A DNA stretch of 20,488 bases from a virus, in IMG/VR virus record IMGVR_UViG_3300009537_000220, positions 1 through 20,488 of that record, one strand, 5' to 3'. The notes under the pieces are model-generated. The model had not been told where the DNA came from. It saw nothing but the letters and a program-made list of their open reading frames with translations, and did not search any database. Numbering within the stretch: the stretch's first letter is position 1; every line of letters starts with the position of its first letter. Positions 1,085 to 19,013 of the stretch are shown piece after piece. Made by a program: the position numbers and the translations under genes.

Positions 1085-1088
1085 TGTT

Positions 1089-1373: not shown

Positions 1374-1375
1374 TC

Positions 1376-1876: not shown

Positions 1877-1881
1877 TTCAG

Positions 1882-2385
1882 TTAGGTTAAAAGTTGTTTA
1901 AACGATGTTTCAAGTTGATTAACGCTTGCCATTGTTGGCGGCAACAATCCTGTAGTTGGTCCCGCTGGCGTTGTTAATCCGAATTGCTTTAGCAAATCCA
2001 CAAGCTGCTGAAATAAATCTGTCATTGAAACACCTCCACGCTTGATCAGGAATCCGCTGGCATCCATTTTCAATTCACACTGCCCGAATTTTATTTCCGC
2101 TTCTTCAACTTCCTCCGCTTCTATCAGGAATGTTGCGGCATCCTGATTTTCTATCATGCCGATCAAACAGCTTGTGTCTGACTTAGGCTTGATGTAAACG
2201 GCACCAATACCGAGCAGCACATCATAATATTCAAGCTCGTCATCTATGCCGACAGCTACCATAGTCTTTTTCCCCCAGTCCACACTCTTTACCGTCACCC
2301 ATGCCGTCTGCACCTTCACATGCTTCTTCGACATTTCGGCAAGTGTCCTGCTCAGTTGCTGTATGTTATTCCCTTTATCTGCCAT
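1882..2385 (-). CDS. Baseplate spike protein, gpV / Mu gp45-like
   Basis: A 167-residue protein. After an N-terminal helix (QQLSRTLAEMSKKH) it has an OB-fold-like run of short strands (VQTAWVTVKSVDWGKKTMVA, YYDVLLGIGAVYIKPKSDTS, CLIGMIENQDAATFLIEAEE), then the β-rich segment LKMDASGFLIKRGGVSM and a C-terminal helix plus Pro/Gly stretch. This is the pattern of Bacteroidota gpV/gp45-type spikes, which tip the tail tube and pierce the outer membrane. No HxH iron-binding tip is visible. The start codon overlaps the stop of the gpD-like gene, which fits the constant gpD-then-gpV order. Confidence 0.65.
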   Translation of the reverse strand: MADKGNNIQQLSRTLAEMSKKHVKVQTAWVTVKSVDWGKKTMVAVGIDDELEYYDVLLGIGAVYIKPKSDTSCLIGMIENQDAATFLIEAEEVEEAEIKFGQCELKMDASGFLIKRGGVSMTDLFQQLVDLLKQFGLTTPAGPTTGLLPPTMASVNQLETSFKQLLT

Positions 2386-3359
2386 TACACTTTGCCGCCA
2401 ATGTTTATTTTCTGTCGGTATCCGTCCCTGCTAAATTTCCTTGTCACCCCATCTACATAAAAAGTCCCGTTTCTGTCTTCGTATATGTCGCTGGTCAAAT
2501 CCACTTTCCATCCGTGGTGCACGCGTGGTGTACCAAATGCGGTAATACTGCCTTCCATCTTGTCCCGCCATGCTTTGTCATAATCAGCTTTCACTTTCTT
2601 TTCCAGTTCAGCTTTGGTGGTGATGTTGTGATATTTCAGGTTCATCACATCACCGCCTTTTTCCCCGAAATCAAATTTTAACCGCTTCCCATTTACCAAA
2701 ATGCTGGTTGCGTTTATCTTTAAAATCACCTCCTCTTTGCTGCGATAGCTCAGATTGTTTTCTGCTATGTTCCTTTCAAGATGGAAGTTTACAGATGGCA
2801 TCCCGGTATTGTCGGAGTAGATTTTACCGCATACAAGTACCGCAGGGTTGGTGGCTGGTTGCATGTAGGAAGAAAAGTTCCAGTCCTGCTTCAGTTTATC
2901 AAGCACGGCAGCTACGGTTGTTTCTTTCAGCCTTACGCTGCCGAGCTTCACCTCATCTGCATCCACCTTTACCGCTCCCTTCACTATATCTTCCAGCAGC
3001 TTTTTAAGCGTTACGTTCGGGTTGCTGTAATTCACCGGTATCTGCTTCAGCTTCCACATCTCATCTTCACAGCGAATGATGATGGGGATGCCTGCACTTA
3101 CCTGAACTATGTAACCTCTGAATTCTTCAAAGAACTTTTCATTATATCCGAGTTCAATCGTTACCGGATCGCCTCGTCTGAATACATCTTTTACCTTTCT
3201 CTTATCAAAGTCCTTCACATTGCGTGGCAGCGTTATCTCTGCTCTGTCCGTCAGCTCCTTCCAACTACTTTCAATGCTCACTTCAATAATTTTCCTAATC
3301 ACTAAATCCTGTCTGTCTCTCACCGAAGGAAAAGTGATACGTGCGGTCATTACCATCAT
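2385..3359 (-). CDS. Tail hub protein, gpD / Mu gp44-like (late control D family)
   Basis: A 324-residue protein of the phage late-control D/gp27 hub family. The N-terminal part has the usual paired segments: a strand region with a 'SSWKELTDRAEITLPRN' element, then 'FRRGDPVTIELGYNEKFFEE' and 'FRGYIVQVSAGIPIIIRCED', which fit the first hub domain. The middle (VTLKKLLEDIVKG, AAVLDKLKQDWNFSSYM) resembles the swapped helical domain. The C-terminus ends FYVDGVTRKFSRDGYRQKIN, as in hub domains that close on the tube. It is expected to form a trimer linking tube and spike. The start overlaps the upstream gene's stop (ATGA). The ATG at 3359 is followed by a second ATG and another Met at codon 4, so the exact start is uncertain by a few codons. 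Confidence 0.75.
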   Translation of the reverse strand: MMVMTARITFPSVRDRQDLVIRKIIEVSIESSWKELTDRAEITLPRNVKDFDKRKVKDVFRRGDPVTIELGYNEKFFEEFRGYIVQVSAGIPIIIRCEDEMWKLKQIPVNYSNPNVTLKKLLEDIVKGAVKVDADEVKLGSVRLKETTVAAVLDKLKQDWNFSSYMQPATNPAVLVCGKIYSDNTGMPSVNFHLERNIAENNLSYRSKEEVILKINATSILVNGKRLKFDFGEKGGDVMNLKYHNITTKAELEKKVKADYDKAWRDKMEGSITAFGTPRVHHGWKVDLTSDIYEDRNGTFYVDGVTRKFSRDGYRQKINIGGKV

Positions 3360-4021
3360 GACATAAGCTCTATTGGTATGTCACTAATCGCATCCATTTC
3401 AAAGGGTATCACCCATGGCTTGCCTTCCAGTTGGCGGAAGCTGAGGTTTTCGATAACGATGCTGTGAATACCCAGCACCGAAAAAAGATAACCCTCCACT
3501 TTAATCCCTTCGATGACCTGCGCGTATTCGTGCAACCCCTGCTTCTGCTGTGCTGCGCTCCTTACGCTGCCATCACCAAAACGATAATCATCGAGGCAAA
3601 GCCCGCGTATTCTTATTTTCCAATCGTCCAGCCCAAATAGCTCTTTCACTGTGCCGTTACCTCCTAAAGGCTGGCTCTTGGCTATTACCTTCTCTCTCGA
3701 AAAATCCACAAGCGTCACGGCAGGCATGGGAAAGTCTGCTATCTGCCTTTTATCAATTTTCCCGCTCTCGTCCACATGAAAGAAAAGTACCTCGCCTCCA
3801 CCTTTCAAAGTCCAGGGAAACATTACCTCCGTTCCCAGCCAACTACTTTTGGTTTCCGTTATTGGGTTATTGTCCACTTTCGCCTCCGGCTTATAGCTAT
3901 TAATACCCACCCATTCTTCCACCTGCCGCGCACTCGGTGGTGCAGGCAATTGAAAGCCTATGCCCGGACGCTGTGCAAATGCCAGGTGAAATAAAGCTCC
4001 TATGTCGTACCTGTCGTTCAT
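3356..4021 (-). CDS. DUF6046-like tail hub adaptor
   Basis: A 221-residue protein. It opens with MNDRYDIGALFHLAFAQ, then a Pro-rich linker (FQLPAPPSA), and ends in β-rich segments such as YLFSVLGIHSIVIENLSFRQ and WVIPFEMDAISDIPIEL. I recall this pattern as the DUF6046 family, found between tape measure and gpD-like hub in Bacteroidota Mu-like phages. By position it is the counterpart of Mu gp43 / 'DNA circularisation protein N', which links tube and hub. It starts 2 nt after the tape measure stop and overlaps the gpD-like gene. The family name is from memory and unverified. Confidence 0.6.
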   Translation of the reverse strand: MNDRYDIGALFHLAFAQRPGIGFQLPAPPSARQVEEWVGINSYKPEAKVDNNPITETKSSWLGTEVMFPWTLKGGGEVLFFHVDESGKIDKRQIADFPMPAVTLVDFSREKVIAKSQPLGGNGTVKELFGLDDWKIRIRGLCLDDYRFGDGSVRSAAQQKQGLHEYAQVIEGIKVEGYLFSVLGIHSIVIENLSFRQLEGKPWVIPFEMDAISDIPIELMS

Positions 4022-4023
4022 TT

Positions 4024-5955
4024 TTACAATTGCAATGCCGCGTCCCTCAAACGGTCATTCACATGTCCTGCAAGCTCGTCGGCTATTTTCGCCACATCGA
4101 GCTTACTGCTTATGTTATTGAAGTAATTTTTAAAATCCATATTCAGCGTGATGATCTTGCTGCCGCCATGCCCACCCACACTCAATCCGTCAGCATCACC
4201 TTTTCCTTTGGGCGGCTTTATATCACCGTCCATATTATTGCCCTCGTTCTGACGAGCGTAAGCATCCGGGCTTAGTTCTTTTTTCTTCTTTTCCTCTTCC
4301 TTCTCTGCGCGGAAATCTGCAATACCTTTTTGCTTGTCACGCTTATAGGCATCCCCCACACCATCGAATAAATGAGTGCTTGCGGCTATTGTTCTCGCCG
4401 CCATGCTGATTGGGTTCAGCTTCAGAAATGCTTTTGCTGCACCCATCCAGTCCCCCTTTTGGATGGCTGCTATCACCTCGGCTATCGGAGAGAATACATC
4501 CTTAAACAGATTGCCGATATTGGTAAATATCTGCTTGATGCTTCCCCATAAACCGTAAAGGAAGCCCCTGAATCCTTCAAACTTTTTCCAGGCATAAATT
4601 ATCCTGCCCACTACAGCCGCGATGGCTAATACTATCCATACACCCGGAAATGAATAAGTAGCAATGTTTAGCTTCCATTGCATGAGTGTCTGCGCCCAGG
4701 TTACTTTGCGCAGCGTGTCCATGATCATAATGGTACTCGCTATGCCCGTAGCCATCGTAGCGAAGGTTTGAAAATATTGAGTGAAGCCTCCGAAGGTGGT
4801 GGCAAACCATGTTTCTATATCCGCCAGCCAACTTTTAATGCCTTCATTTGCCTGCTGCACTTCCGGCAGCTTTTCAAAATCAAGGTCCACGCTGCCCAGC
4901 CCTTTTATAAACTCATTGCCCGCATCTTCACCTGCCGCCTTGAATATCGTTTTCATTACCTGCTGTCTTGCCTGTGTGCTCGCGCCTTCCATTTGCCTGG
5001 CTATAAGCTGCACGGCTTCAAAGCTGCTCTTACCCACAAAGTCTTTAGGGGAAAGCTTTATGCCTTTCAATGCGGTGATCTGGCTTGAGTTCATCTCTTT
5101 GAGTGAAAGATTCGCCTCTTTGATACTATCCAAAGCCTTATCGCTGAAAACGCCGCTCTTGCCAGCCTGCACCATCAAGCTCATTGTTTCTGCTGCGCTC
5201 AATCCTGCCGCCCGCATTTGCGGACCGTACTCCCTCAATTGTTGCAGCATGTCGTCGTTTAGGTTCGCACCTTTTTTAAACCCCTTCTCAATGAGGTTGA
5301 AGGCATCATTAAACGAGATGCCCATTTGCTTGCTCACGGCATTAGCCGCTTGTGCTATCTCGCGGTCATCTTCATTAAACACCTTTCCAAGCCTATGCGC
5401 TCTGCGTGTCAGTTCCTCCAGTTCATCACCGGTTGCACTGCTGAATCTTTGAATATCTGTTTGCAAATCCTGAATGGCGGGGGCAAAATCAAGCATCTGT
5501 ACTACGCGGTCTGCAAGCTGCTGCATCTGATTAAATGCAGTGATAGTACCCTCCCAGCGCGAGGCTCTTACTTTAAACTTATCCAGGTCATCAGTAAGGT
5601 CTTTCATGTCCTTATCTGCGCCCTTCAGTGCCCCTCGCAGTTCTTCCAGTCCTTTCTTTGCCCTGTTCAGTTCGCGCACGGCTTTTGCCTGTACTGTGCC
5701 GGGTGCTGTTTTGGCGGATATTTTTTCAAGCTCAGCTACCTTTTTTTCGGTATCCTTTATCTGCTTGCTGAGGTCTTTGTAGTATTGCTTGGCTTTGCCC
5801 AGTGCATCTTTGGTGGCTTTCTCGCTCAGCTTCACGGCTCCGCTCATATCATCCACAGCATCCTTTCCGCCGGTGATCGCTTTGGTAATTGCTTTCATCG
5901 GGGCAGTGATCAGGTCCGCCAGCTTCAGTATCCATGTGGTTTGCGTATCTGCCAT
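4024..5955 (-). CDS. Tail tape measure protein
   Basis: A 643-residue protein, the longest in the window. Residues about 30-135 are coiled coil (SEKATKDALGKAKQYYKDLS, KDTEKKVAELEKISAK). Residues about 165-370 match the TP901-type tape-measure core: FSSATGDELEELTRRAHRLG, QAANAVSKQMGISFNDAFNL, GPQMRAAGLSAAETMSLMVQ, GKSGVFSDKALDSIKEA. Hydrophobic helices follow at about 395-455 (TMATGIASTIMIMDTLRKV, VWIVLAIAAVVGRIIYAW). The C-terminus is charged and ends in a β-like NMDFKNYFNN segment. It sets tail length and occupies the tube lumen. It is placed, as usual, directly after the chaperone. Its length would predict a short tail, of the order of 90-100 nm by the usual 1.5 Å per residue rule. Confidence 0.93.
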   Translation of the reverse strand: MADTQTTWILKLADLITAPMKAITKAITGGKDAVDDMSGAVKLSEKATKDALGKAKQYYKDLSKQIKDTEKKVAELEKISAKTAPGTVQAKAVRELNRAKKGLEELRGALKGADKDMKDLTDDLDKFKVRASRWEGTITAFNQMQQLADRVVQMLDFAPAIQDLQTDIQRFSSATGDELEELTRRAHRLGKVFNEDDREIAQAANAVSKQMGISFNDAFNLIEKGFKKGANLNDDMLQQLREYGPQMRAAGLSAAETMSLMVQAGKSGVFSDKALDSIKEANLSLKEMNSSQITALKGIKLSPKDFVGKSSFEAVQLIARQMEGASTQARQQVMKTIFKAAGEDAGNEFIKGLGSVDLDFEKLPEVQQANEGIKSWLADIETWFATTFGGFTQYFQTFATMATGIASTIMIMDTLRKVTWAQTLMQWKLNIATYSFPGVWIVLAIAAVVGRIIYAWKKFEGFRGFLYGLWGSIKQIFTNIGNLFKDVFSPIAEVIAAIQKGDWMGAAKAFLKLNPISMAARTIAASTHLFDGVGDAYKRDKQKGIADFRAEKEEEKKKKELSPDAYARQNEGNNMDGDIKPPKGKGDADGLSVGGHGGSKIITLNMDFKNYFNNISSKLDVAKIADELAGHVNDRLRDAALQL

Positions 5956-5968
5956 TGTCGTATATTTG
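5940..5968 (+). promoter_or_regulatory. Bacteroidota-type promoter on the plus strand
   Basis: TTTG at 5940-5943 and TATATTTG at 5961-5968 are separated by 17 nt. The second box is a full match to the Bacteroidota -7 consensus TAnnTTTG, and the first fits the -33 TTTG. The box ends 4 nt before the ATG at 5973, so transcription would start almost at the ATG, giving a leaderless or near-leaderless mRNA. It overlaps the start of the tape measure gene on the other strand, and a chance match is possible. Confidence 0.45.
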
Positions 5969-5972
5969 TGCC

Positions 5973-6128
5973 ATGTCGGTACTTTCCTTCATAGCTACAT
6001 TAATCATCGGCGCCTTCTTTATTTACTTTATGGCGCTCTGCGTGCTCTACGCCGTTGGAGGGATACTTCATTTTCTGCGCACGCTCTGGAAAGACTTTTG
6101 CAGTATTATTCTGTCTTTCCGTAGATAG
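5973..6128 (+). CDS. Putative small membrane protein opposing the tail operon
   Basis: A 51-codon ORF starting at the ATG at 5973. The protein is almost one long hydrophobic helix, or two short ones (VLSFIATLIIGAFFIYFMAL then CVLYAVGGILHFL), followed by a basic, aromatic tail ending SFRR. It fills the 150-nt space between the stop of the chaperone frameshift product (6106) and the tape measure start (5955), where the minus strand offers no gene that I can see. A promoter-like pair lies just upstream. It could be a moron, an exclusion or holin-like protein, or a chance ORF. A membrane product from the antisense strand of a tail operon is unusual. Confidence 0.42.
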   Translation: MSVLSFIATLIIGAFFIYFMALCVLYAVGGILHFLRTLWKDFCSIILSFRR

Positions 6129-6665
6129 CTTTTGCAAGCTCGTAAAGCACCTCCCGAAGGTTATTCTTCAGCACTTCACCCTCTACATACTGCACGTATT
6201 GATATTCCCCCACCAGCTTTGCCCACTCTTCATCGCTTAGTTTATCCGGGTCGCAGCCATAAGTCTTTCTTATCACTGCGTTCCATTTCTTTACCGCGCC
6301 GCCATCATCGTCCTCCGGGTCAAGATGCCTGGCGGCTAAAGCTTTTTTACGGAGGCGCGTTTTCTGGTCACGAGCCTTTCAAGCTGTTCCAGTAAGGCTG
6401 TATATACGCTGCCGTCGTTCTCCATCAAATCCATGTCGCCACCCAGCACACAATTAGCAATAAGCACTTTGTTCGCTTCCGCTACTTGTTTCTTTACACC
6501 ATACTCACCGATGGCATCCATAACACTCCTATTAGGTCTGCGGGCTATAAAGCTTGCCGTTTTGCCCTCTTCAAGTTCCACGTCTATCTGCTGGAGCTCT
6601 CCGTACTTCAGTTTCCAGTCCTGAATCATTTCAGGAGTAATGTCGCTATAACTTCTTGGTTGCAT
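6106..6665 (-). CDS. Tail assembly chaperone, -1 frameshift product (gpGT-type)
   Basis: Slipping by -1 on the heptamer at 6348-6342 joins the 108 upstream codons to a second frame of 78 codons (ALAARHLDPE ... KAIYGKTE) ending at TAA 6108-6106, so the fusion is 186 residues. The second frame has no start codon in a sensible place, is free of stops, and encodes an ordinary, charged, helical protein (SDEEWAKLVGEYQYVQYVEG), which argues that it is translated only by frameshifting. In lambda the equivalent G and GT proteins are both needed for tail assembly, with the T part contacting the tube protein. Two frames and a fitting signal are directly visible; the in vivo use is inferred. Confidence 0.8.
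6298..6348 (-). promoter_or_regulatory. Programmed -1 ribosomal frameshift signal
   Basis: On the minus strand, A AAA AAG (6348-6342) is in the right register of the zero frame (GTA AAA AAG CTT TAG). Five nucleotides later GCCGCCA (6336-6330) can pair with TGGCGGC (6304-6298). The stem can extend with CATC/GATG across a small bulge. The heptamer is the most slippery one in bacteria (the dnaX type), and the spacing to the stem-loop is the usual 5-9 nt. The zero-frame stop codon sits two codons after the heptamer. Confidence 0.85.
6336..6665 (-). CDS. Tail assembly chaperone, short form (gpG-type)
   Basis: A 109-residue product that ends at TAG 6338-6336 if no frameshift occurs. It contains a helical N-terminus (SDITPEMIQDWKLKYGEL), a strand pair (IDVELEEGKTASFIARRPNR), and helical segments with VLIANCVLGGDMDLMENDG. 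This is the usual pattern of the small tail chaperones that coat the tape measure before tube assembly. It lies between tube and tape measure, the standard place. Its last sense codons overlap a slippery heptamer, which makes a longer second product likely (see the next entry). Confidence 0.8.
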   Translation of the reverse strand: MQPRSYSDITPEMIQDWKLKYGELQQIDVELEEGKTASFIARRPNRSVMDAIGEYGVKKQVAEANKVLIANCVLGGDMDLMENDGSVYTALLEQLERLVTRKRASVKKL

Positions 6666-6711
6666 TTTTATTCAGTTTAAAATGATGTTTAAATGTTTTT
6701 AAGTCGCGTGG

Positions 6712-7146
6712 CTATACGCCCCACTCAATATGGCTTACCAGTCCTTCAAACTTGAAGGCGATGGTTCCGTCTCCCTGCTTTACGGGGATGCCTCTGTTTT
6801 TGAATTCGAAATTCCTGATCCTGTCCTTGCTGAGCACTCCGCCCCCCTGCTCATACTCGCACGTGATGTCAAACGGTGGAATATCCTGAAAGCGACTTCC
6901 CGGGGGCAATGATTTTTGAATCGCGTCCATTTCTTCCTTATACAGCGTAATTGCGCATTTTGCCTCATAATTTCCCTCGCCTCTACCAACAGGATATTTC
7001 CCGCCTCCATACGCGTTTTCTTTGGACACACTGTCATCATACTCTATTTCCGTAAAACCTTCCACCTCGCGTCCCATTATCTCCACAGTCAGGGCGTTCC
7101 ATCCCTGCATCCTTCCGAACTTATTAATGATTGTTGCCTTTGGCAT
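6712..7146 (-). CDS. Tail tube protein
   Basis: A 144-residue β-rich protein directly downstream of the sheath. Segments such as ALTVEIMGREVEGFTEIEY, GEGNYEAKCAITLYKEEMDA, IPPFDITCEYEQ and IRNFEFKNRGIPVKQGDG resemble the Mu gpM/P2 FII-like tube fold (a sandwich with one helix). It forms the inner tube of the contractile tail; the sheath-tube-chaperone-tape order supports this strongly. The start is the ATG at 7146, 36 nt after the sheath stop, behind an A-rich tandem repeat. Confidence 0.8.
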   Translation of the reverse strand: MPKATIINKFGRMQGWNALTVEIMGREVEGFTEIEYDDSVSKENAYGGGKYPVGRGEGNYEAKCAITLYKEEMDAIQKSLPPGSRFQDIPPFDITCEYEQGGGVLSKDRIRNFEFKNRGIPVKQGDGTIAFKFEGLVSHIEWGV

Positions 7147-7160
7147 ATTAACGATTTTAG

Positions 7161-7184
7161 ATTTTGAATTTTGAATTTTGAATT
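7161..7184. repeat. Short AT-rich tandem repeat (7-bp unit, about 3.4 copies)
   Basis: Plus strand ATTTTGA repeats at 7161-7167, 7168-7174 and 7175-7181, with part of a fourth copy. On the coding strand this gives an A-rich leader upstream of the tail tube ATG and runs into the sheath stop codon. A-rich, unstructured leaders favour translation in Bacteroidota, where Shine-Dalgarno pairing is weak; that role is inference. Confidence 0.75.
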
Positions 7185-8412
7185 ACAGTTTGTTGGTCAG
7201 TCCTAAGTCCACGCTGAATTCATGCACGATACCATCTGCAACCACCGATGCTTTTACAACCAGCGGAGTATTTTCGCTTGGATTTTGCTTCGGGTCTATG
7301 TAGCAGCTTTTGCCGCTGATCTCGTCTGCTGCTTCCATGCGCTCCAATGCTTTCAGCACAAGTCCTTCCCAGCGTGATGTGGTGGTGGTGCGGATATATC
7401 CGGTTGCAGAATCTTTCTTCACTTTGCCTTTCACTTCCGGCAGCAGCGTTTCGCGGATCAGCCTTGCAGCTTTATTCCACACACGGGTATTTTCCATGTA
7501 AGCATAATCGCTTGCAGCCTCTACGCAGGCAGGCGAGCTATTGAGGAAGATCCCGCCATACCCTTCATAATGCCCGGCAAACACATAGCCTTTTGCAGTA
7601 AGCGATTTCTTTTCCGCCTGGCTCAAAGCAGTTTCCTTTGTTCCATCGCTCAGGGTTGCAGATTGCCACAGGCTTCCTTCGCTCAGTGGATAATCTTTAT
7701 TCCCTTTTTTAATGGAAGGCTTATTGCTGATGTTCACACTGCCCCAATTTTCATTTACCTGACGGGCAGCAGCCATACCGAGCACGGCTCCTACATCCGC
7801 ATATTTTGCATAAGCGGCATCCAGCGCAGCTATGTAAGGGTCTTGCGCAATGCTCACCATCACGTTGGGAGCTACCTTAGTGCGCAGGTCATTATACGTT
7901 GCAACAGTGATGGCAACAGCCTCGCCATTGCCTTGCAGCAACACGAAGTCTATTAAACGATGTTCTGCGGCAAAATCATCAATCACCGCCTGAATGTCTT
8001 CCACCATTGCAGCCAGCGATTGAACCGTGGTTGCAGTGCCGCCTATCGCTATGCCTTTTACCTTTGGCATGTTGCGAATTGCCTCCTGAAATGCGGCAAG
8101 CTCCATAACCTGCTTTGGAGTCAGGTTATCGGCAACAGGTACGAGATGAAGGACTGCATCCGGTGCCAGTCTGAAAAATTCGCTGATAGCATGATGCACC
8201 AGATAACCATTGTTTGCATCGAAAGCGGCATTAAAACCTGCATCCTCTGCATTCTTCAGCGTGAACAGCTCAATAGGTTCATTATGCGAAGCTCCCGCCG
8301 GAAGATCGGCAGCAGATATGGCATACGCCAGAGCCATTACATTATCATCGGTAGGATTGGTGCGACCAAGACCGCCATTCAGTTTATTAATTTTTACTCC
8401 TTCGAAACTCAT
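7183..8412 (-). CDS. Contractile tail sheath protein (DUF2586-like)
   Basis: A 409-residue protein. The N-terminus (FEGVKINKLNGGLGRTNP) is followed by an α/β region with repeated strand-helix units (LHLVPVADNLTPKQVMEL, KVKGIAIGGTATTVQSLAAM, LIDFVLLQGNGEAVAITVAT, PNVMVSIAQDPYIAALDA), then GYGGIFLNSSPACVEAASDY and RVWNKAARLIRETLLPEV, and a C-terminal strand domain ending in a β-strand (ADGIVHEFSVDLGL). This is the layout of Bacteroidota sheath proteins of the DUF2586 type. It polymerises around the tube and contracts on infection. It lies directly upstream of the tube gene, as in all myoviruses. Confidence 0.82.
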   Translation of the reverse strand: MSFEGVKINKLNGGLGRTNPTDDNVMALAYAISAADLPAGASHNEPIELFTLKNAEDAGFNAAFDANNGYLVHHAISEFFRLAPDAVLHLVPVADNLTPKQVMELAAFQEAIRNMPKVKGIAIGGTATTVQSLAAMVEDIQAVIDDFAAEHRLIDFVLLQGNGEAVAITVATYNDLRTKVAPNVMVSIAQDPYIAALDAAYAKYADVGAVLGMAAARQVNENWGSVNISNKPSIKKGNKDYPLSEGSLWQSATLSDGTKETALSQAEKKSLTAKGYVFAGHYEGYGGIFLNSSPACVEAASDYAYMENTRVWNKAARLIRETLLPEVKGKVKKDSATGYIRTTTTSRWEGLVLKALERMEAADEISGKSCYIDPKQNPSENTPLVVKASVVADGIVHEFSVDLGLTNKL

Positions 8413-8441
8413 TTCAGGAAGTTTTTATAAGCGTGATTGAA

Positions 8442-8975
8442 TTATTTTTTTGCTTTTGCAGTTTTTTTAGGGGCTGGGGTTGTTTTTGGTTGAGCAGCTT
8501 TTTTAGGTGCGGCTTTTACCGTTGCTTCTGCCGGAATGGTTACGTCTTCACCAGCATTCACGCCCTGGTCTTTCAGATCAGGATTGTTTTGCAAATCTTC
8601 TTCAGTGATCGTATGCTGCGTGCCTTCTCCCTCACCCACTAATTCGTCAATGCGTGCCTGGATAACAGATACCGCATTTACATCATTGGAGCCGCCTACT
8701 TCTTCAAGCAGCATATCATGCAATTCATTCAGATCGGCAATAGCGTTCACGTTCCCCTGAAGCGCATTAAGAGCAGCAATCGAGTAAGCTTCTAAAGGTG
8801 TGTCCCCGTCTGCCTCCATTGTATAAATATTCCTGCCCTTCGCATGAAGGAAGGCACGGTTATACAAAAGGAAAAACTGACCGTCACTGGTGGCGTAGAG
8901 CTTACGCACGCCAAGTCTTTTGAAGTGTTCTTTTGATAGCTCAATAAGTTCTTGCTGGCTGTATATTGATTTCAT
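8442..8975 (-). CDS. Unknown phage protein with a histone-like basic tail
   Basis: A 177-residue protein. Residues 1-75 look folded (IYSQQELIELSKEHFKRLGV, KLYATSDGQFFLLYNRAFLH). The middle is helical and acidic (IADLNELHDMLLEEVGG). The last 40 residues are low complexity and rich in Ala, Lys and Pro (PKKAAQPKTTPAPKKTAKAK), like a histone H1 tail. A protein of this kind often lies between capsid and sheath genes of Bacteroidota Mu-like phages; I cannot assign a function. A neck or head-completion factor that touches DNA is possible because of the basic tail. The gene follows lysozyme by 11 nt and precedes sheath by 29 nt. Confidence 0.65.
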   Translation of the reverse strand: MKSIYSQQELIELSKEHFKRLGVRKLYATSDGQFFLLYNRAFLHAKGRNIYTMEADGDTPLEAYSIAALNALQGNVNAIADLNELHDMLLEEVGGSNDVNAVSVIQARIDELVGEGEGTQHTITEEDLQNNPDLKDQGVNAGEDVTIPAEATVKAAPKKAAQPKTTPAPKKTAKAKK

Positions 8976-8986
8976 AAACGTGTTTT

Positions 8987-9448
8987 TTAAGAAATGTTTT
9001 CTATTCCATAGCGATAAAGTGCGGCTTCCGCCTTGCGGCGTTTGGTAAGCCCTGGCAAAACCTGCCCTTTGGACTTATTCCATCTCATGAATTCCGCCTC
9101 TATTTCTTCGAGCGGGGCATTCATATTTACTTTCCTAAGCAGGGTAGATTTTTCCAGATTGCCAACGCCCACGTTATAACAGAAGCTAACCAGCGCATCA
9201 AACTCATGTTGATGAATATGCCGCTTAACCATTTGATCAACGCTTATAGCAAACTTCTCCACCACATACTTGACCATTGAATCCGCGCGTCCTTTTGTTA
9301 TCGTGTCGCCTTTCTTAACAGGTCTGCCGTTTTCAAAAAAGGTATTTCCATATCCGATAGTCCAAATACCTGCACTGCATTGATATGCTTGCATCTTGCA
9401 GCCTTCGAAGTGTTTTATAAGGGCATAGCATTTTTCAGATGGCTTCAT
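8987..9448 (-). CDS. Endolysin, GH24 (T4-type) lysozyme
   Basis: A 153-residue muramidase that cleaves the glycan strands of peptidoglycan. The family motif is clear: KHFEG with catalytic Glu15, then AYQCSAGIWTIGYGNT, and later ALVSFCYNVGVGNLEKSTLL, RWNKSKGQVLPGLTKRR and EAALYRYG. The triad spacing is E-8-C-5-T (Glu15, Cys24, Thr30): cysteine stands where T4 lysozyme has Asp20, a variant known in active members. There is no signal peptide or N-terminal anchor, so export must depend on a holin. Its ATG overlaps the TGA of the spanin-like gene (ATGA). Confidence 0.93.
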   Translation of the reverse strand: MKPSEKCYALIKHFEGCKMQAYQCSAGIWTIGYGNTFFENGRPVKKGDTITKGRADSMVKYVVEKFAISVDQMVKRHIHQHEFDALVSFCYNVGVGNLEKSTLLRKVNMNAPLEEIEAEFMRWNKSKGQVLPGLTKRRKAEAALYRYGIENIS

Positions 9449-10008
9449 AAAAATCTTTTAATGATGAGTATTACAATTGCAACAACGCCTCCGATTATCA
9501 AAACCCACTTCAAATAGAACATCAGATCATACACCTTCACAGTTTCTTTATGGGTGTTTGAAGTCTCGTTTTTGCTGAAATAAGCATCTTTCCAATAGCT
9601 GACACTATCGCGTATCTCCGTAACCGTACTGTCAAGGCTTCGGATCACCAGCGCAAAGCTGTCTGCCTTGCATTGCATGTTCACGCTGCCGTCAGGATGA
9701 ACGGTAACCTTCATGCTGATGCCTGCGCTGTCCTTTACGAATGTGCGTGGCACTGCTTTACCTTCTTTGGTATAAACAGGCTGCAAGTCTTCAGGAGTAA
9801 AATCGTGAGTAACGGTCTTTTTCGGTATTCCTATGGTAGAATCCTTCTTTTGGGTAAATGTATTGGTACTCGTCCCGGAAGAAGTATTCAAACTGTCCCG
9901 GCGCGAAGTCACTTCCTGTTTCGCCGTATTGCTGCTCTCTGTCTTTTTTACGGGAGCGCAGGCAGACAGAAGCAGGATCAGAATTAGTATGTTGAAACTC
10001 CAATTCAT
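9445..10008 (-). CDS. Candidate unimolecular spanin (lipoprotein with C-terminal membrane anchor)
   Basis: A 187-residue protein. The N-terminus is a lipoprotein signal (WSFNILILILLLSAC) with lipobox LSAC and acylated Cys17. A long periplasmic middle is rich in Ser/Thr and charged residues, with a helical segment (LVIRSLDSTVTEIRDSVSYW). The C-terminus holds a transmembrane helix at about residues 166-184 (FYLKWVLIIGGVVAIVILII) and a short basic cytoplasmic end. An outer-membrane lipid anchor plus an inner-membrane C-terminal helix is the architecture of u-spanins such as T1 gp11, which fuse the two membranes in lysis. It lies between holin-like and lysozyme genes with overlapping codons at both ends. 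The function is inferred from architecture and context. Confidence 0.62.
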   Translation of the reverse strand: MNWSFNILILILLLSACAPVKKTESSNTAKQEVTSRRDSLNTSSGTSTNTFTQKKDSTIGIPKKTVTHDFTPEDLQPVYTKEGKAVPRTFVKDSAGISMKVTVHPDGSVNMQCKADSFALVIRSLDSTVTEIRDSVSYWKDAYFSKNETSNTHKETVKVYDLMFYLKWVLIIGGVVAIVILIIKRFL

Positions 10009-10190
10009 TAGCGTTTTTTAATGTTCTTCCAGAATATGAATGCCTGGTTGCAGGCGTAGAGCAGCCCACCGGCTATGGTTATAAGTCCTATAATGCTGCT
10101 CATCGTTATGTTGGTTAAAATCCACCCTGTAAACAAGCTTGCAAGATATACACCATCTCCCAACGTATTGCCACTCTGCATTTGTTTCAT
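10008..10190 (-). CDS. Holin-like small membrane protein
   Basis: A 60-residue protein with a hydrophobic core from about residue 15 to 53 (VYLASLFTGWILTNI, SSIIGLITIAGGLLYACNQAF), enough for one long or two short membrane helices, and a basic C-terminus (KNIKKR). Size, charge and place directly upstream of the spanin-like and lysozyme genes fit a holin that opens the inner membrane. TAATG overlap with the next gene indicates coupled translation. No specific holin family is recognised. Confidence 0.55.
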   Translation of the reverse strand: MKQMQSGNTLGDGVYLASLFTGWILTNITMSSIIGLITIAGGLLYACNQAFIFWKNIKKR

Positions 10191-10232
10191 TTTTTGCTGT
10201 GTGTTATCCTGAGATTTAGAGGGTTTTTTAAA

Positions 10233-10258
10233 GGAGAGCTACACGACCATAGCCCTCC
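10233..10258 (-). terminator. Hairpin between the secreted protein and the lysis cassette
   Basis: GGAGAGCTA (10233-10241) and TAGCCCTCC (10250-10258) form a 9-bp stem with an 8-nt loop. In minus-strand RNA the one mismatch becomes a G·U pair. It lies 29 nt after the stop at 10287. The tract that follows (TTTAAAAAACCC) is a poor U-run, so partial termination or an RNA-processing site fits better than a strong terminator. Confidence 0.45.
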
Positions 10259-10286
10259 TGTTTACCCATCATGAAAAACAGCTTCT

Positions 10287-10709
10287 TTATCGTACTTCGT
10301 CAGGTCTTCGCATGTAAGTGAAGGACAGCACACTTCGTTGGGTACTGGATGGCGTGATATACCTGATCCGGTAACTATAATAACTTGTGGATGTAAGAAG
10401 CCACACTTTGAAATTCGTGGTTTGATTCGCCAGCGTCAGCGTATCCGTGTTTACATCCACCCAGTTCGTTCCGTCAATAGTGCCTTGCAGAATCACATAA
10501 CTCGCTGTATTGATCGTTCCGCTCACCTTCGTAACCGTAGCCTGCAAGGCTACGATGTTGCTGGGCACAGCATTGAACGTTATTACAACCGTGTCCTGGT
10601 TGATACAGGTGTCGGGAGCCTGCCTCGTGAATCGTTCGGGCACGGCAGCCTGACATGACAAAGCGAAGCACAGGCCGCTTACTATTGCTAAAAAGATTGT
10701 TTTCTTCAT
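10287..10709 (-). CDS. Small secreted β-rich protein of unknown function
   Basis: A 140-residue protein with a clear Sec signal: MKK, a hydrophobic run (TIFLAIVSGLCFAL) and a likely cut after SCQA. A lipobox is not convincing (ALSC rather than L-x-A/S-C). The mature part is β-rich, with VVITFNAVPSNIVALQATVT, SYVILQGTIDGTNWVDVNTD and SYYSYRIRYITPSS, a sandwich-like pattern seen in 'DGTNW' extracellular or virion-associated domains. It is placed between major capsid and lysis genes. A signal peptide on a protein in this place is odd for a virion component; it may alter the host surface. I cannot assign a role. Confidence 0.65.
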   Translation of the reverse strand: MKKTIFLAIVSGLCFALSCQAAVPERFTRQAPDTCINQDTVVITFNAVPSNIVALQATVTKVSGTINTASYVILQGTIDGTNWVDVNTDTLTLANQTTNFKVWLLTSTSYYSYRIRYITPSSTQRSVLSFTYMRRPDEVR

Positions 10710-10753
10710 TTCGTTTGAAAAATTTGGATTAGAAAAAATATTTGGATTTTGAT

Positions 10754-10777
10754 CCCCCTCTCCCGTGAGAGAGGGGG
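10754..10777 (-). terminator. Intrinsic terminator-like hairpin after the major capsid gene
   Basis: CCCCCTCTC (10754-10762) pairs with GAGAGGGGG (10769-10777): a perfect 9-bp GC-rich stem with a 6-nt loop, 13 nt after the capsid stop at 10791. A TTTTTT run follows about 18 nt further on the minus strand, too far for a textbook terminator. It could limit read-through from the highly expressed capsid gene into the genes below. Confidence 0.6.
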
Positions 10778-10790
10778 TTAGAACTGATGC

Positions 10791-11681
10791 TTACTCAACT
10801 ACCGGGCTTACGATTGCGCCGAATCCTTCATCTTGCAAGCCTACGCAGATGGCGTACAAACGGAAACCGATTGTATTCTCACGCATTGTAGGATTGAGTT
10901 CAGCAGGAAGCGCATAACGCTTGATAGAACCTGTAGCTTTGCACGCGCTGCTCTTATGGAAGAACACGGAAGCTGTACGACCGTCCACACTCTCAAACGC
11001 TTTCTTAGTCCACACGCCGTTTACTTTCTCGTACTTGGGCACATTGGGAGAAACCCAAAGATTAAAGCCTACGTGGAACTGCGGTTTAGTCCCCTGCATC
11101 CACTCGCCGCCCCACGCACGCTGGCGGGTAGCATCTTCGAGCATCAGATCGGCTGCGTGCTCATAGCTCAGAGTTAGGTTGCGTCCCAAAAGCTGGCTTA
11201 ACGGTCCCTGCAATTCCCAAAACTTGATAAGATCGGGTGTGGTCATACGCCTGCGACCTGTTACAGGATCAGGATCACCTGTACATTCAATGATCGGCGT
11301 TTTATTAGTGTCTGACGGAGCAGAGATACTGAACAAGCCGTGCTGCGCCGTCTTATCTTCCAGCGTTTCGCGGTGTTGCATCTGCACATCGCTTGTCTTT
11401 TCGTAGGGCAGGGCATACAGCTCATCGTCTGTTACGATAGTGTTTTCTGTTTCATACTTATTCAGAGAAACAGCGATAAAGTCATCATCACGCCTGTTGC
11501 TGGCAATCGGGTAAATGTTGTTATTGATCAACACAAGCGGAGCGGTGCCCTGGCGAGGTATCTTGATAACATCATTGTTTACCCATTCGTTTTTCGCCTT
11601 TAACTCACCCATCCATGAGTTTTCGTGGCGGAATTTTTTGAGAAGCTCCCTTTCGGCAAGTTCGTTTTGGAGTTGTGCCAT
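10791..11681 (-). CDS. Major capsid protein
   Basis: A 296-residue protein, right for a Mu gpT-like/HK97-fold capsid subunit. It begins with a short helix (LQNELAERELLKKFRHEN) and then a segment with strands typical of Bacteroidota capsid proteins (NNDVIKIPRQGTAPLVLINN, IYPIASNRRDDDFIAVSLNK). The C-terminal half carries MTTPDLIKFWELQGPLSQLL, DLMLEDATRQRAWGGEW and ENTIGFRLYAICVGLQDEG. It follows the protease-scaffold gene by 46 nt. It is not made as a long precursor: no cleavable N-terminal domain is visible, in line with the scaffold being carried on the protease gene. Confidence 0.82.
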   Translation of the reverse strand: MAQLQNELAERELLKKFRHENSWMGELKAKNEWVNNDVIKIPRQGTAPLVLINNNIYPIASNRRDDDFIAVSLNKYETENTIVTDDELYALPYEKTSDVQMQHRETLEDKTAQHGLFSISAPSDTNKTPIIECTGDPDPVTGRRRMTTPDLIKFWELQGPLSQLLGRNLTLSYEHAADLMLEDATRQRAWGGEWMQGTKPQFHVGFNLWVSPNVPKYEKVNGVWTKKAFESVDGRTASVFFHKSSACKATGSIKRYALPAELNPTMRENTIGFRLYAICVGLQDEGFGAIVSPVVE

Positions 11682-11727
11682 TATTTTTCTTTTAAAAAGT
11701 TTTTAAATACGGTTTACAAACAGATTT

Positions 11728-12186
11728 TTATTTAACCTTCTTACCGAAGTAAGCAGCTTCCAGTTTTGCGGCGTGTTCAGGTTCGTCCTCTTTCATCTTC
11801 GCATAGGCATCCGGGTCTTTGTCGAGGTAATCGTCCAGCGTCCAGTTTTCGCGTCCTGCTTCAACACTGCCTCCGGCACTTTTACGATCAAGAGATGCGG
11901 ACAGCTTAGGAGTGGCAGTTCTTTTCTCAAGCAACGCCTTTGTACCGTCATAATCCACAGCCGCAAGTTTCACGATGCTCTCACGCTCATCAGCAGAGGC
12001 GATCTTGTCAACGATTGCCTTATCCGCGAGGGCTTCGGCTTTTACCTTAGCAGACTTTTCTGCATTTGCCTGAAGATTTGCAGCACTTTCTGCATCCTGC
12101 TTATTTGCTTTTACGGCAGATTCAATTTGCTCGTCTGTAGCATCAGCAGGCAGACCGAGCATTGCGATCAGTTTTAAACGATCCAT
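11728..12186 (-). CDS. Possible separate scaffold from an internal start (nested)
   Basis: In-frame ATG at 12186-12184 (Met217 of the protease gene) stands exactly between the protease domain and the helical scaffold domain, and would give a 152-residue scaffold. An A-rich tract precedes the ATG (AATAAAAACTCCAAGCAA), which suits Bacteroidota initiation. Mu Z and lambda Nu3 are made by such internal starts. There is no strong ribosome-binding site, so this remains a proposal from layout. Confidence 0.35.
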   Translation of the reverse strand: MDRLKLIAMLGLPADATDEQIESAVKANKQDAESAANLQANAEKSAKVKAEALADKAIVDKIASADERESIVKLAAVDYDGTKALLEKRTATPKLSASLDRKSAGGSVEAGRENWTLDDYLDKDPDAYAKMKEDEPEHAAKLEAAYFGKKVK

Positions 12187-12834
12187 TTGCTTGGAGTTTT
12201 TATTTTGAATAATTGGTTTTGGTATGTGAGGAGCGGCACATGCGGTAAGCAATGCCACATCTTCTTCAGTTATCGCTTCCGCGTCGGTTTCAATGGCATC
12301 TACAAAGCCCTGCTCCTTCGCCTCCTGGGCAGTCATCCAGTAATCACCTTTTGCCCATAACGCTTCTATTTCTTCAGGGGTTTTGCCTGTCTTGGCGGCA
12401 TAGGCATTTTTATAATCTTCGGTGATGTTCTTGAGCAGCTTCAGGTCTGATTCCACTTCGTCAATAGTTCCGGATGTGTACAGGCGGGGACGATGCACCA
12501 TTACCTGGCTGTTTGATTTTACCGTGGTGGGAAACTTGGCGCAGAGATAAGTAACGGCTGAAGCTGCCACAGCCCCAACCAGAATGCTAACTGTTTCTAT
12601 TCTCGTAAGCTCATTGGCAATCTCTGTAGCTTCAAACACATCACCTCCGCGACTGTTTATATACACCTCGCATTCTTTTACTCCGTGTGCCAGCAGGCGG
12701 TCAACCTCCTGACGCACATTATAGCTGCTTGCCGAGGTATATTCTTCTACATAGCTCACAATGCGTATGTAACCTTTCCCGGCTTTGAACTCCGCTGTTA
12801 TTCTGTTTTTGTTTTTGCCTTTTACGACTGCCAT
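11728..12834 (-). CDS. ClpP-like prohead protease with C-terminal scaffold domain
   Basis: A 368-residue protein. Residues 20-185 are ClpP/S14-like: oxyanion-loop segment YINSRGGDV (58-66), nucleophile Ser92 in VGAVAASAVTYL, His114 in QVMVHRPRLYTSG, and an acidic residue in GFVDAIE (Asp179 is the likely third member). The C-terminal part from about 215 is Ala/Lys/Glu-rich and helical (SAANLQANAEKSAKVKAEAL) with the acidic end LDKDPDAYAKMKEDEPEHAA, the usual composition of a capsid scaffold. It guides capsid assembly and then digests the scaffold, as Mu gpI/Z and lambda C/Nu3 do. An internal Met217 lies at the scaffold boundary. Confidence 0.88.
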   Translation of the reverse strand: MAVVKGKNKNRITAEFKAGKGYIRIVSYVEEYTSASSYNVRQEVDRLLAHGVKECEVYINSRGGDVFEATEIANELTRIETVSILVGAVAASAVTYLCAKFPTTVKSNSQVMVHRPRLYTSGTIDEVESDLKLLKNITEDYKNAYAAKTGKTPEEIEALWAKGDYWMTAQEAKEQGFVDAIETDAEAITEEDVALLTACAAPHIPKPIIQNKNSKQMDRLKLIAMLGLPADATDEQIESAVKANKQDAESAANLQANAEKSAKVKAEALADKAIVDKIASADERESIVKLAAVDYDGTKALLEKRTATPKLSASLDRKSAGGSVEAGRENWTLDDYLDKDPDAYAKMKEDEPEHAAKLEAAYFGKKVK

Positions 12835-16757: not shown

Positions 16758-17753
16758 TTGTTTAAACGAATAGAAGCATCTTATCAACACGACCATGCGT
16801 GCGGACACGCCGCGCATGTGCGAGCCGTTGATCTGCCGGATAACTGGCAGCAGGAGTTCCTCCGCATTGCGCAGGAAATGCACGATGAAAAATACGGCAA
16901 GGCAGTTATTCCCGAATTGACCAATAAAACCTATGACGCGTTAAATGGAGGACATCTTTCAGGGAGAAATATAAAGTTCGGCGATGAGGCAGGCGCCGAT
17001 CCTGCGGTTCTTAACATGCAAAGAAACCTGTTCAGATTCTCCGGAGCGAAATCATTTGCAATTCGTGAGGAACTGAATCATCTGCTGCATAAAGACGGCA
17101 AGAAAAGACCGTGGGAAGACTTTAAAACCGAAGCCCTGAAGATTAACGAAAAGTATAACGTCAATCATTTGCAGGCAGAATATCAAACCGCGCACGCTGC
17201 CGGACAACATGCCCGTAACTGGGAGAAATATCAGTCGCAAAAAAAGCTGTTCCCAAATCTTAAATACAGGACCGTTGGCGATGCAAGAGTGCGTGATGAA
17301 CATGCGAAGCTGGAAGGTATCATAGCTCCTATAGACAGCGATTTTTGGAAGAAATATTACCCGCCTAATGGATGGCGGTGTTTCCCTCCGGAAACACTAA
17401 TACTTACCGAAAAAGGATGGAAACAAATTAAGAACATCAAACAAAGAGACTGGCTACCTGGCGGGAGCGGAGAGATGAAGTTTGTGGAAGCCGTTCATGT
17501 AAATCCGTTCCGCGGAAATCTTATCACTATCAATGATGCTGTTTCTTGCACCCCAAACCACAGATTCCTTACTGCTAAAGGATGGATTGAGGCGGAGCAG
17601 ATTGAAGCCGGAGATATAATCATACAGGTCGGTAAAGTCGGCTTTTTTTATAAAGTTCTCCATGCAGTACACAATACTGTAGCCCTCGTCCAGTATGTAT
17701 TGATGGCGGTCAAAAGAAGGTTTTCGCCTGCTGCTTTGCAGGTCAATGATTAG
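16758..17753 (+). CDS. gpF head-morphogenesis protein, N-half, fused to an N-intein
   Basis: Residues 1-207 are the Mu gpF/SPP1 gp7-like head protein, with helices (DNWQQEFLRIAQEMHDEKYG), GDEAGADPAVLNMQ, and the conserved block YRTVGDARVRDEHAKLEG, IIAPIDSDFWKKYYPPNGWR. At residue 208 (codon 17379) the protein turns into an intein: Cys1, CFPPETLILTEKGWKQIKNI (block A), NPFRGNLITIND (N2), SCTPNHRFLTAKGWIEAEQI (block B, with TPNH), then GDIIIQVGK. About 36 further residues are the reverse side of the antisense endonuclease gene and end at TAG 17753. The start is TTG at 16758; no ATG or GTG lies in frame in the gap after the portal stop. Full gpF can form only if this half is spliced to the second half. 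Confidence 0.85.
   Translation: MFKRIEASYQHDHACGHAAHVRAVDLPDNWQQEFLRIAQEMHDEKYGKAVIPELTNKTYDALNGGHLSGRNIKFGDEAGADPAVLNMQRNLFRFSGAKSFAIREELNHLLHKDGKKRPWEDFKTEALKINEKYNVNHLQAEYQTAHAAGQHARNWEKYQSQKKLFPNLKYRTVGDARVRDEHAKLEGIIAPIDSDFWKKYYPPNGWRCFPPETLILTEKGWKQIKNIKQRDWLPGGSGEMKFVEAVHVNPFRGNLITINDAVSCTPNHRFLTAKGWIEAEQIEAGDIIIQVGKVGFFYKVLHAVHNTVALVQYVLMAVKRRFSPAALQVND
17379..17641 (+). other. N-terminal intein segment (Hint fold, IntN)
   Basis: Codons 17379-17641 encode about 88 residues with class 1 intein features: Cys1, the N1 block ending IKNIK, the N2 strand FRGNLITI, and block B with Thr-x-x-His (TPNH) that activates the first peptide bond. The segment ends at GDIIIQVGK, where continuous inteins pass into a linker or endonuclease domain. 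The insertion point is the last residues of the gpF motif PPNGWR-CRC. Confidence 0.9.
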
Positions 17754-18332
17754 ATGATGATCCGGCAGATAAAAATTGACAAAATAATGTCCAACTATGT
17801 ATCGGAACTCAAAACGGATTTTTAGAGCGTTTAAAAACTCAATAACAATTTGCTCGTTAGCGCTCAAAGGTGATTTTAAAAAAGCATTTCTTTCAGGATG
17901 CTTTCGCCTGGCAATTACTGAATTTTCTTTGGCTTTATTCATGACCCCCGGACGATGGAAGGAAGAAGTTTTTTCCAGCTTCTTTGCTATTGCTCTTACC
18001 ATCTTACTGTTCTCTTTTGTTTTCCCTTGTCTTATGTGCAAACCTTTTAAAGCCAACTCATGATTTGTTTTTGCCAATATAGCTGCTGCCTGCTTTCTGC
18101 GCTTCTTATTATTCACCCATTGGGTTTTTACAGCTTCGCTGCCTTTGCGGGGCTGCTGCTGGCAGTAGGCTATTATTTTTGCCACCGTTCGATTATTAAT
18201 CCGCCAAAGCTTGCAAAGCTTACGATAGCTGAGCAACTCGGTAAAATATCTTCGCTCAAGGGCATCAGCAATATCGCATCCTTCCAAAAATTCAATTCTC
18301 GCTATCACTTCCTGCGAAAGACCTTTTTTCAT
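17454..18332 (-). CDS. Predicted Vsr/DUF559-like homing endonuclease, antisense within the split intein
   Basis: A 292-residue protein from ATG 18332 (MKKGLSQEVIARIEFLEG); the frame is open to 18593, but that part only mirrors gpF. Residues about 33-56 form a helix-turn-helix (SYRKLCKLWRINNRTVAKII). Residues 95-155 are basic with NUMOD3-like repeats (GKTKENSKMVRAIAKKL, NKAKENSVIARRKHPE). Residues 158-240 match the DUF559/Vsr-type nuclease: ANEQIVIEFLNALKIRFEFR, HYFVNFYLPDHHLIIDLQ, FDRHQYILDEGYSIVYC. Glu159, Asp197 and Asp208 hold acidic positions, but the usual Asp of 'YIVDFY' is Asn186 and 'E-x-D-G' is D-L-Q-S, so activity is uncertain. The C-terminal 50 residues are antisense to IntN. This is the position between blocks B and F where inteins normally carry their endonuclease, but inverted. 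Confidence 0.75.
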   Translation of the reverse strand: MKKGLSQEVIARIEFLEGCDIADALERRYFTELLSYRKLCKLWRINNRTVAKIIAYCQQQPRKGSEAVKTQWVNNKKRRKQAAAILAKTNHELALKGLHIRQGKTKENSKMVRAIAKKLEKTSSFHRPGVMNKAKENSVIARRKHPERNAFLKSPLSANEQIVIEFLNALKIRFEFRYIVGHYFVNFYLPDHHLIIDLQSSRRKPSFDRHQYILDEGYSIVYCMENFIKKADFTDLYDYISGFNLLRLNPSFSSKESVVWGARNSIIDSDKISAERIYMNGFHKLHLSAPAR

Positions 18333-18344
18333 ACGCGCTATGTT

Positions 18345-18446
18345 TTGGTAAAAAACAAAAATACGAAACCATACAGCGGCAGTGTTTATAATCTTTCCGT
18401 GTGGGAAGATGAAAGCTACATTACCAGGACAGGCATTGCGCATAAT
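18345..18446 (+). other. C-terminal intein segment (IntC)
   Basis: Codons 18345-18446 encode about 34 residues: a β-strand region VKNKNTKPYSGSVYNLSV (block F) with acidic WEDESYIT, then TRTGIAHN (block G) ending His-Asn, followed by Cys+1 at 18447. Size and motifs match IntC segments of naturally split inteins (about 35 residues in DnaE inteins). Confidence 0.88.
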
Positions 18447-19013
18447 TGCCGCTGCTTTGTTACTCAGACGGCGGAGCTTGCCAATCACGATCTGCCGGAT
18501 GATGTACCTGAAGTGAAACCGGAATTCCGCCAAAATGTGGGCATCACCGAAGAAGTGTTTCCTGAAAAGAAGATAGACGGTGTAAAGCCGCATATATATT
18601 TCGCCATAGCTGCAAAAGCAGGCGTAAAAGTGCAGCAGGAAATAGACAATCTGCTAGCAAAAGAAACGGCAAAAAAAGCAGTAGAATGGGGCAAAGAGAA
18701 TCTTGTGCAGGCAAAAGTAAAACTGACCCACCTAAGCCTTCCGAAAGAAATATCACTATCTGTCCGCAACCTAAAAACGATAACGGGGAAACCACATAAA
18801 AACAGAGCGGAGAGAAACGACCTGCTTTATAACATTGAGGGTGATTTTAAAGACGCTGAATTCATTAAAGGTCCCATACCTGAAGGTAAAGGACGATCTC
18901 AGTATAAGAACTGGTGGTACTTTAAATCAAAGCAAGGCGATTTCTATTACAATGTAGTCGAATCTGCTGATGGAAGGATTGAAATACATGCTATAACTGA
19001 TAGCGTAAAATAG
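18345..19013 (+). CDS. C-intein fused to gpF C-half and a BECR-type nuclease domain
   Basis: IntC (34 residues) is followed by CRCFVTQTAELANHDLPDDV, which completes the gpF motif after splicing (NGWR + CRC). Then comes a gpF-like tail (EEVFPEKKIDGVKPHIYFAI) and a helical linker. The last 85 residues or so (VRNLKTITGKPHKNRAERND, LLYNIEGDFKDAEFIKGPIP, WWYFKSKQGDFYYNVVESAD, GRIEIHAITDSVK) resemble phage BECR (barnase-EndoU-colicin-RelE) domains often fused to gpF, with a conserved His in PHKNR. The start is uncertain: TTG 18345 gives a textbook IntC; ATG 18060 gives a hydrophobic extension that mirrors the antisense gene. The spliced gpF would have about 395 residues. Confidence 0.72.
   Translation: MVKNKNTKPYSGSVYNLSVWEDESYITRTGIAHNCRCFVTQTAELANHDLPDDVPEVKPEFRQNVGITEEVFPEKKIDGVKPHIYFAIAAKAGVKVQQEIDNLLAKETAKKAVEWGKENLVQAKVKLTHLSLPKEISLSVRNLKTITGKPHKNRAERNDLLYNIEGDFKDAEFIKGPIPEGKGRSQYKNWWYFKSKQGDFYYNVVESADGRIEIHAITDSVK

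Follow-up and report, generated by a model that had tools for sequence, protein, structure and literature searches.

In canonical inteins such as PI-SceI, the homing nuclease is nested in the intein polypeptide, and homing nucleases have so far been conceived either in this way or as free-standing genes. Antisense homing endonuclease genes are known from nuclear group I introns, a precedent that is taken here as a lead only. Dassa and colleagues reportedly described, in 2009, fractured genes that combine split inteins with free-standing endonuclease genes. Here, we compare these systems with a virus record of 20,488 bp (IMGVR_UViG_3300009537_000220 in IMG/VR), which was analyzed as a whole and is called the window below. 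It contains a Mu gpF-like head gene at positions 16758-19013, which is interrupted by an intein at the motif PPNGWR|CRC. The window very probably represents a derived split-intein branch of mobile gpF inteins with an inverted, dual-coding homing-type nuclease gene, in which gpF would be produced by protein trans-splicing. The basis for this reading was computed, and consists of the anatomy and homology of the locus, the double coding, the strand-specific selection, the derived position of the fracture and the presence or absence of the intein in relatives.

Like canonical inteins, including one at the same gpF site in contig L067, the window has nuclease DNA between the N-terminal and C-terminal halves of the HINT domain (IntN and IntC), but its nuclease is encoded separately, by a gene of the opposite strand. 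Like the fractured genes, it has a split intein that breaks up a conserved phage gene, and the gap holds a nuclease gene, which belongs to the Vsr-like family. It may differ from them in the inverted, in-register nuclease, and does so in the interruption of a head gene and in having continuous sister forms with the same inverted gene. As in the antisense endonucleases of nuclear group I introns, the mobility gene is placed opposite to the strand of the host gene, but introns need no open frame. The double coding arises because an intein, unlike an intron, must keep the sense strand translatable. I-Bth0305I (PDB 3r3p) is an EDxHD homing endonuclease of a group I intron-associated family (PMC3943268), and the window protein resembles it in combining a Vsr-like catalytic fold with a DNA-binding part. 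However, the window protein has an asparagine at one catalytic position, and its gene lies within an intein and is read from the opposite strand. Inteins in gpF or minor head genes are described for Salmonella Jerseyvirus (PMC8425127), coliphage vKMB36 (PMC11162368) and a Mu-like phage from cryoconite (PMC7468147). The host gene is of the same kind in all three, and in Jerseyvirus and vKMB36 an antisense nuclease match was detected here at the gpF gene. No mention of an antisense nuclease inside an intein was found in the openly licensed literature searched, including the passages on these three inteins.

As proposed in the initial annotation, which was made by a model from the sequence alone, the gpF frame is broken at the junction motif. 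The locus has two open reading frames (ORFs) on the sense strand (16758-17753 and one ending at 19013) and an antisense ORF that extends to 17454. The sense stops that it had placed between the intein halves number seven in the 356-codon sense frame of the intein (17379-18446). They arose by substitution and without a frameshift, and each of them reads TTA, CTA or TCA in the nuclease frame. All splice residues are present (CFPPET...TPNH...AHN|CRC), namely Cys1, the TxxH of block B, the His-Asn pair and Cys+1. Intein profiles run on both segments gave a match above the model cut-off for IntC and one below it for IntN (TIGR01445, E=0.0014). The HINT fold was recovered in a model of the continuous homolog L076, to which the window halves are homologous. 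In this model, the predicted local distance difference test (pLDDT) score is 84-93 for IntN (residues 1-88), 80-87 for IntC (residues 324-361) and about 30 for the linker, and the top PDB matches are the inteins MchDnaB-1 (E=3.2e-5) and gp41-1. The predicted spliced gpF of 395 amino acids (residues 1-207 plus 188 residues), already postulated in the initial annotation, aligns as a single segment across the junction to the intein-free gpF in L012 (41.6% over 293 amino acids), and about 60 gpF relatives are without an insert exactly at this point. The N-extein is 41.7% identical to gpF of Winogradskyella phage Peternella, and the match stops at residue 208.

The codons of the antisense nuclease lie exactly opposite the sense codons, and 292 codons are open from an ATG at 18332. 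This start replaces the first ATG of the long antisense ORF, at 18593; the ORF itself had been recognized correctly. The gene overlaps IntN by about 62 codons, and about 20 other proteins are homologous to its product. An AlphaFold2 model based on 19 sequences is confident, and less so in the C-terminal ~50 residues that overlap IntN. Alignments of the model with VIA-align gave Z 10.7 and a root-mean-square deviation (rmsd) of 2.0 over 100 residues for Vsr from E. coli (1vsr), and Z 9.8 with an rmsd of 2.2 over 88 residues for the catalytic domain of I-Bth0305I, which was also matched by Foldseek (E=7.8e-4). In Pfam, the window nuclease matches DUF559 alone, and weakly, while members of the family match helix-turn-helix (HTH) families and DUF559/REase_MTES_1575. 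The protein had been described as a Vsr/DUF559-like nuclease with HTH and NUMOD3-like parts, and the first two agree with the fold, the predicted helices, a DeoR HTH profile and the weak DUF559 match, while no match was seen for a NUMOD3-like part. Of the catalytic-site residues, Glu160 and Asp197 are kept. At the position of the predicted catalytic aspartate of most relatives, the window has Asn186 (codon at 17775-17777, minus strand), which calls the assumption of an intact nuclease into question. An asparagine at this position is common to the nucleases of the window, L090, L071 and L091. The Asn186 change coexists with purifying selection on the nuclease frame between the window and L090.

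Relatives were located by a DNA pattern that spans the junction between extein and intein, PPN[GD]WxC[LF]xxxT, and by alignments. With the window nuclease as the sole query, no relatives were found in viral contigs or phages, and the N-extein as the sole query gave none in viral contigs; an alignment of eight gpF rows contained no stretch conserved enough to serve as a query. The junction pattern matched 19 viral contigs, three of which were rejected as false matches. The majority had a long intein reading, and two were ended by the contig end soon after the junction. Except for L067, the sense strand of the long-intein contigs is open (277-362 amino acids; in L066 it runs to the contig end), and all of these contain an antisense ORF homologous to that of the window. 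Scans based on the nuclease brought additional relatives, including 87 records of cultured phages at E<=0.01. Among the matches listed, the host genes are those for head morphogenesis or the minor capsid or occupy a similar place, and some bear no annotation other than "hypothetical"; the carriers include Salmonella Jerseyvirus, Pseudomonas, Gordonia, Mycobacterium and Vibrio phages and coliphages. None of the 24 continuous inteins that were measured has a sense stop, and their in-register antisense ORFs span 237-337 codons. At the gpF site of the window, continuous forms occur in Bacteroidota-, proteobacterial- and actinobacterial-type phages (at least 24 loci), and the distance from the nuclease ATG to the intein end is 38 or 39 codons in the Bacteroidota type and 20 in most others. 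No full-length nuclease relatives were found in 395 Bacteroidota genomes, which contained DUF559-like domains of about 100 amino acids only. One of 398 proteobacterial genomes encodes a full-length relative, and the locus is again an antisense nuclease within a gpF intein.

Two further arrangements were observed. In L067 (2903-4087), the same gpF site is occupied by a conventional intein with a sense-strand endonuclease-like part and without a long antisense ORF. In Mycobacterium phage Sejanus (L110:2417-3232), an intein with an antisense nuclease is inserted at another point of the MuF domain (WV|C...HN|CTIDGKTR).

The differences between relatives show which of the two frames is under selection. 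In the linker, they amount to 789, 620 and 1230 at positions 1, 2 and 3 of the nuclease codons, and in the exteins to 422, 337 and 912 at the corresponding positions of the sense codons (summed over 15 pairs, which are not independent, with a pattern that holds in most of them). Consistently, the ratio of nonsynonymous to synonymous change (dN/dS, here w; NG86) in five more diverged pairs ranges from 0.07 to 0.25 for the nuclease frame, compared to 0.85-1.75 for the sense frame; L099 and L100 are so close that their changes are too few for an estimate. The codons TTA, CTA and TCA, which would create sense stops, are absent from the linker of continuous members, compared to 8.7 expected in L071 (P0=3e-5) and 7.8 in L073 (P0=3.7e-5) under the codon usage of each contig and with codons assumed to be independent. 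Likewise, no sense stops are seen where 6.6 are expected in L092, 6.3 in L064, 5.1 in L070 and 4.3 in L096. The insert is dual-coding, with an amino-acid constraint on the nuclease frame and a sense frame that is merely kept free of stops. Taken together with the low pLDDT of the linker, the selection on the nuclease frame and the open sense frame indicate that the sense linker has no structure of its own and is a shadow cast by the nuclease gene.

The window and another virus contig, L090, are sisters (support 98/98) that are nested inside the continuous forms, and the fracture is a later, derived step in one branch of the continuous inverted-nuclease inteins. The window has 7 stops compared to 3.9 expected without constraint, and L090 has 8 compared to 8.0. 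In both, the stops are restricted to codons 119-228, and three of them are located at the same leucine codons of the nuclease. Both also contain an ATG 129 codons before the splice junction, after which the next 94 codons are free of stops (P 0.19 and 0.01, based on codon usage). The fracture must be old because three stops are common to the window and L090, although their exteins are only 34% identical. Between the two, w is 0.12 for the nuclease, 0.19 for IntN and 0.30 for the N-extein. Since the conserved nuclease, IntN and exteins are under purifying selection, a working, trans-splicing split intein is favored. The reading of the initial annotation is partly supported: a split intein around an inverted nuclease is the best interpretation of this contig and is backed by L090, with its shared stops and conserved parts, but the inversion is not confined to the fractured form and is normal in continuous relatives. 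A third fractured gpF intein, in L094 (3213-4187, minus strand), contains an antisense HNH nuclease (PF01844, E=2e-6), and its IntC begins at an ATG 35 codons before the intein end. Codons 112-277 of the sense frame in L094 are still free of stops (P ~1e-5), as if the fracture were only recent.

These observations suggest the following scenario. A mobile intein occupies the conserved CRC motif in phage gpF, with a homing-type endonuclease gene inverted inside it. In most relatives, the forward reading of the insert gives an unstructured linker between IntN and IntC, and the intein would be continuous and cis-splicing; in the reverse reading, with the codons exactly opposed, the insert encodes an HTH and a Vsr-like nuclease of the EDxHD type. 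Alleles of gpF that lack the intein would be cut by this nuclease at the insertion site, so that the element is copied. In the branch of the window, sense continuity was lost; the N-terminal part of gpF with IntN stops at 17753, and IntC with the C-terminal part of gpF would be made from an internal start, probably the ATG at 18060. We infer the trans-splicing, the cleavage by the nuclease and this start. As the halves would be made separately, gpF would have to be rebuilt by protein trans-splicing, and the sense frame would be freed from stop avoidance, so that the nuclease could use TTA, CTA and TCA.

Several points weigh against this scenario. The IntN profile matches in the window fall under the curated cut-offs, and neither a strong start nor a promoter was found for the IntC half, for which a TTG at 18345 is an alternative start. 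A scan for sigma-70-type promoters gave hits no more numerous than in shuffled sequences. The 93-codon extension on the IntC fragment is unusual. The w values between the window and L090 are only approximate because dS is near saturation, and selection for an open sense frame is not demonstrable in GC-rich members, where the stop-avoidance test has no power because few stops are expected. Cleavage by the window nuclease is doubtful because Asn186 sits at the predicted catalytic aspartate. It is accordingly conceivable, though the less likely option, that the nuclease of the fractured branch has lost its cutting activity and persists as a DNA-binding regulator or in some other function, as hinted at by the N-terminal HTH and by the low w of a nuclease frame that encodes asparagine at this site in both the window and L090. 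However, the remaining catalytic fold is kept with Glu160 and Asp197, and the same change is found in the continuous members L071 and L091.

It is unlikely that gpF of the window is a dead gene, left by a decayed continuous dual-coding intein in a defective phage or prophage. The seven stops, an IntC half with no proven start and the replaced catalytic aspartate would fit such decay. However, the stops shared with L090 indicate an old fracture, yet IntN, IntC, exteins and nuclease are all under purifying selection, and a functional split intein, unlike a dead gene, predicts that all parts stay conserved long after the fracture. The confinement of stops to the same codon range in both contigs, with none after the shared ATG, and the intact adjoining ORFs for the portal, terminase and gpG-like proteins also speak against a dead gene. 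That the antisense ORF is no gene, and only reflects codon bias in a linker domain encoded on the sense strand, is highly improbable. GC-rich genes often have long antisense ORFs in the same register (in L108, 1062 codons are open from stop to stop), but both the codon-position and dN/dS tests place the constraint on the antisense frame, a confident nuclease fold is predicted for the antisense protein and none for the sense linker, the antisense frame is the one kept in fractured members that have lost the sense frame, and the other long genes of the window contain 3-10 in-register antisense stops. The sense linker as a protein domain and a spurious antisense ORF were therefore both rejected. 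Sequencing or assembly errors in this environmental virus record, with an intein that is really continuous, are just as improbable and were rejected, as seven substitution stops without a frameshift each fit a nuclease codon, homologous stops recur in the independent contig L090, and L094 is a third fractured member.

Antisense nucleases in gpF inteins are of more than one kind. A LAGLIDADG-like protein is encoded antisense in gpF of the Gordonia phages Lennon, Sitar, Nordenberg, Thing3, SchottB and Barsten. It has a motif match to I-MsoI and is 31-32% identical to annotated phage endonucleases, with a Pfam LAGLIDADG_3 match of only 0.26. The gpF exteins of Lennon and Vivi2 are 93-95% identical at the DNA level, while their inteins are unlike. 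In four other close pairs, intein similarity exceeds extein similarity. Of 349 matching records from Jerseyvirus-type phages, 58 contain the intein, with a match to at least 80% of the gpF query, and most of the others, among the matches listed, give a two-piece match with an intein-sized gap, corresponding to an empty site. The presence and absence expected of a homing element is thus seen in relatives, and not in the window's own lineage. These elements probably belong to a widespread, undescribed class of mobile inteins with an antisense, in-register homing endonuclease from at least three families (Vsr/EDxHD-like, HNH and LAGLIDADG-like), which has repeatedly yielded naturally split inteins. 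The inverted nuclease forces both strands to code along a stretch of more than 200 codons. Such antisense overlap under selection is rare, and this case of it is clearly testable. The fractured members suggest a concrete route to naturally split inteins, by loss of the sense constraint with both halves being kept, and newly supply candidate split-intein pairs for protein engineering. Nuclease genes, most of them unannotated, are hidden in the gpF/MuF genes of cultured phages of Salmonella, Pseudomonas and Gordonia and of coliphages.

Two observations concern the placement of the nucleases. A single gpF site is occupied by two different inteins, with an antisense LAGLIDADG-like gene in Lennon (L003:2741-3565) and an antisense Vsr-like gene in Vivi2 (L109). 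In L097 (1205-1876), a nuclease of the family is free-standing and convergent with an intein-free gpF, whose 3' end it slightly overlaps, and the distance to the target motif is about 15 codons; this arrangement is a possible picture of a precursor.

Table 1. Features of the interrupted gpF locus in the window, with their positions, strand and supporting evidence.
Feature	Positions	Strand	Evidence
gpF N-extein, 207 aa, ends ...PPNGWR	16758..17378	+	Phage_Mu_F E=5.6e-11; TTG start assumed
IntN, ~88 residues (Cys1, block A, TPNH block B)	17379..17642	+	Weak TIGR01445/PF14890 matches; homology to L076 IntN
Seven sense-frame stops	17751, 17823, 17832, 17871, 17877, 17919, 18048 (span 17751..18050)	+	Frame reading
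Candidate IntC start ATG 18060 and 93-codon extension	18060..18338	+	ATG common to L090, no stops after it
IntC (blocks F and G), ends ...GIAHN	18339..18446	+	TIGR01443 20.1 bits, cut-off 15.6
gpF C-extein, 188 aa, begins CRCF	18447..19013	+	Spliced protein aligns across junction to intein-free gpF
Antisense nuclease gene, 292 aa	17454..18332	-	Conserved ATG spacing; AlphaFold2 pLDDT 83.4; w=0.12 vs L090
Helix-turn-helix, residues 21-56	18165..18272	-	AlphaFold2 helices; DeoR HTH profile match E=0.004; Pfam HTH in relatives
Vsr/EDxHD-like catalytic domain, residues 151-247	17592..17882	-	Vsr and 3r3p fold matches; alignment

The gene layout of the window is Mu-like, with leftward genes in 1-12834 and rightward genes from 12937, encoding the terminase, portal, gpF and gpG-like proteins. 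The gpF-like gene is preceded by a Mu-like portal gene (PF06074). The gene order around gpF resembles that of the Winoviridae phage Peternella.
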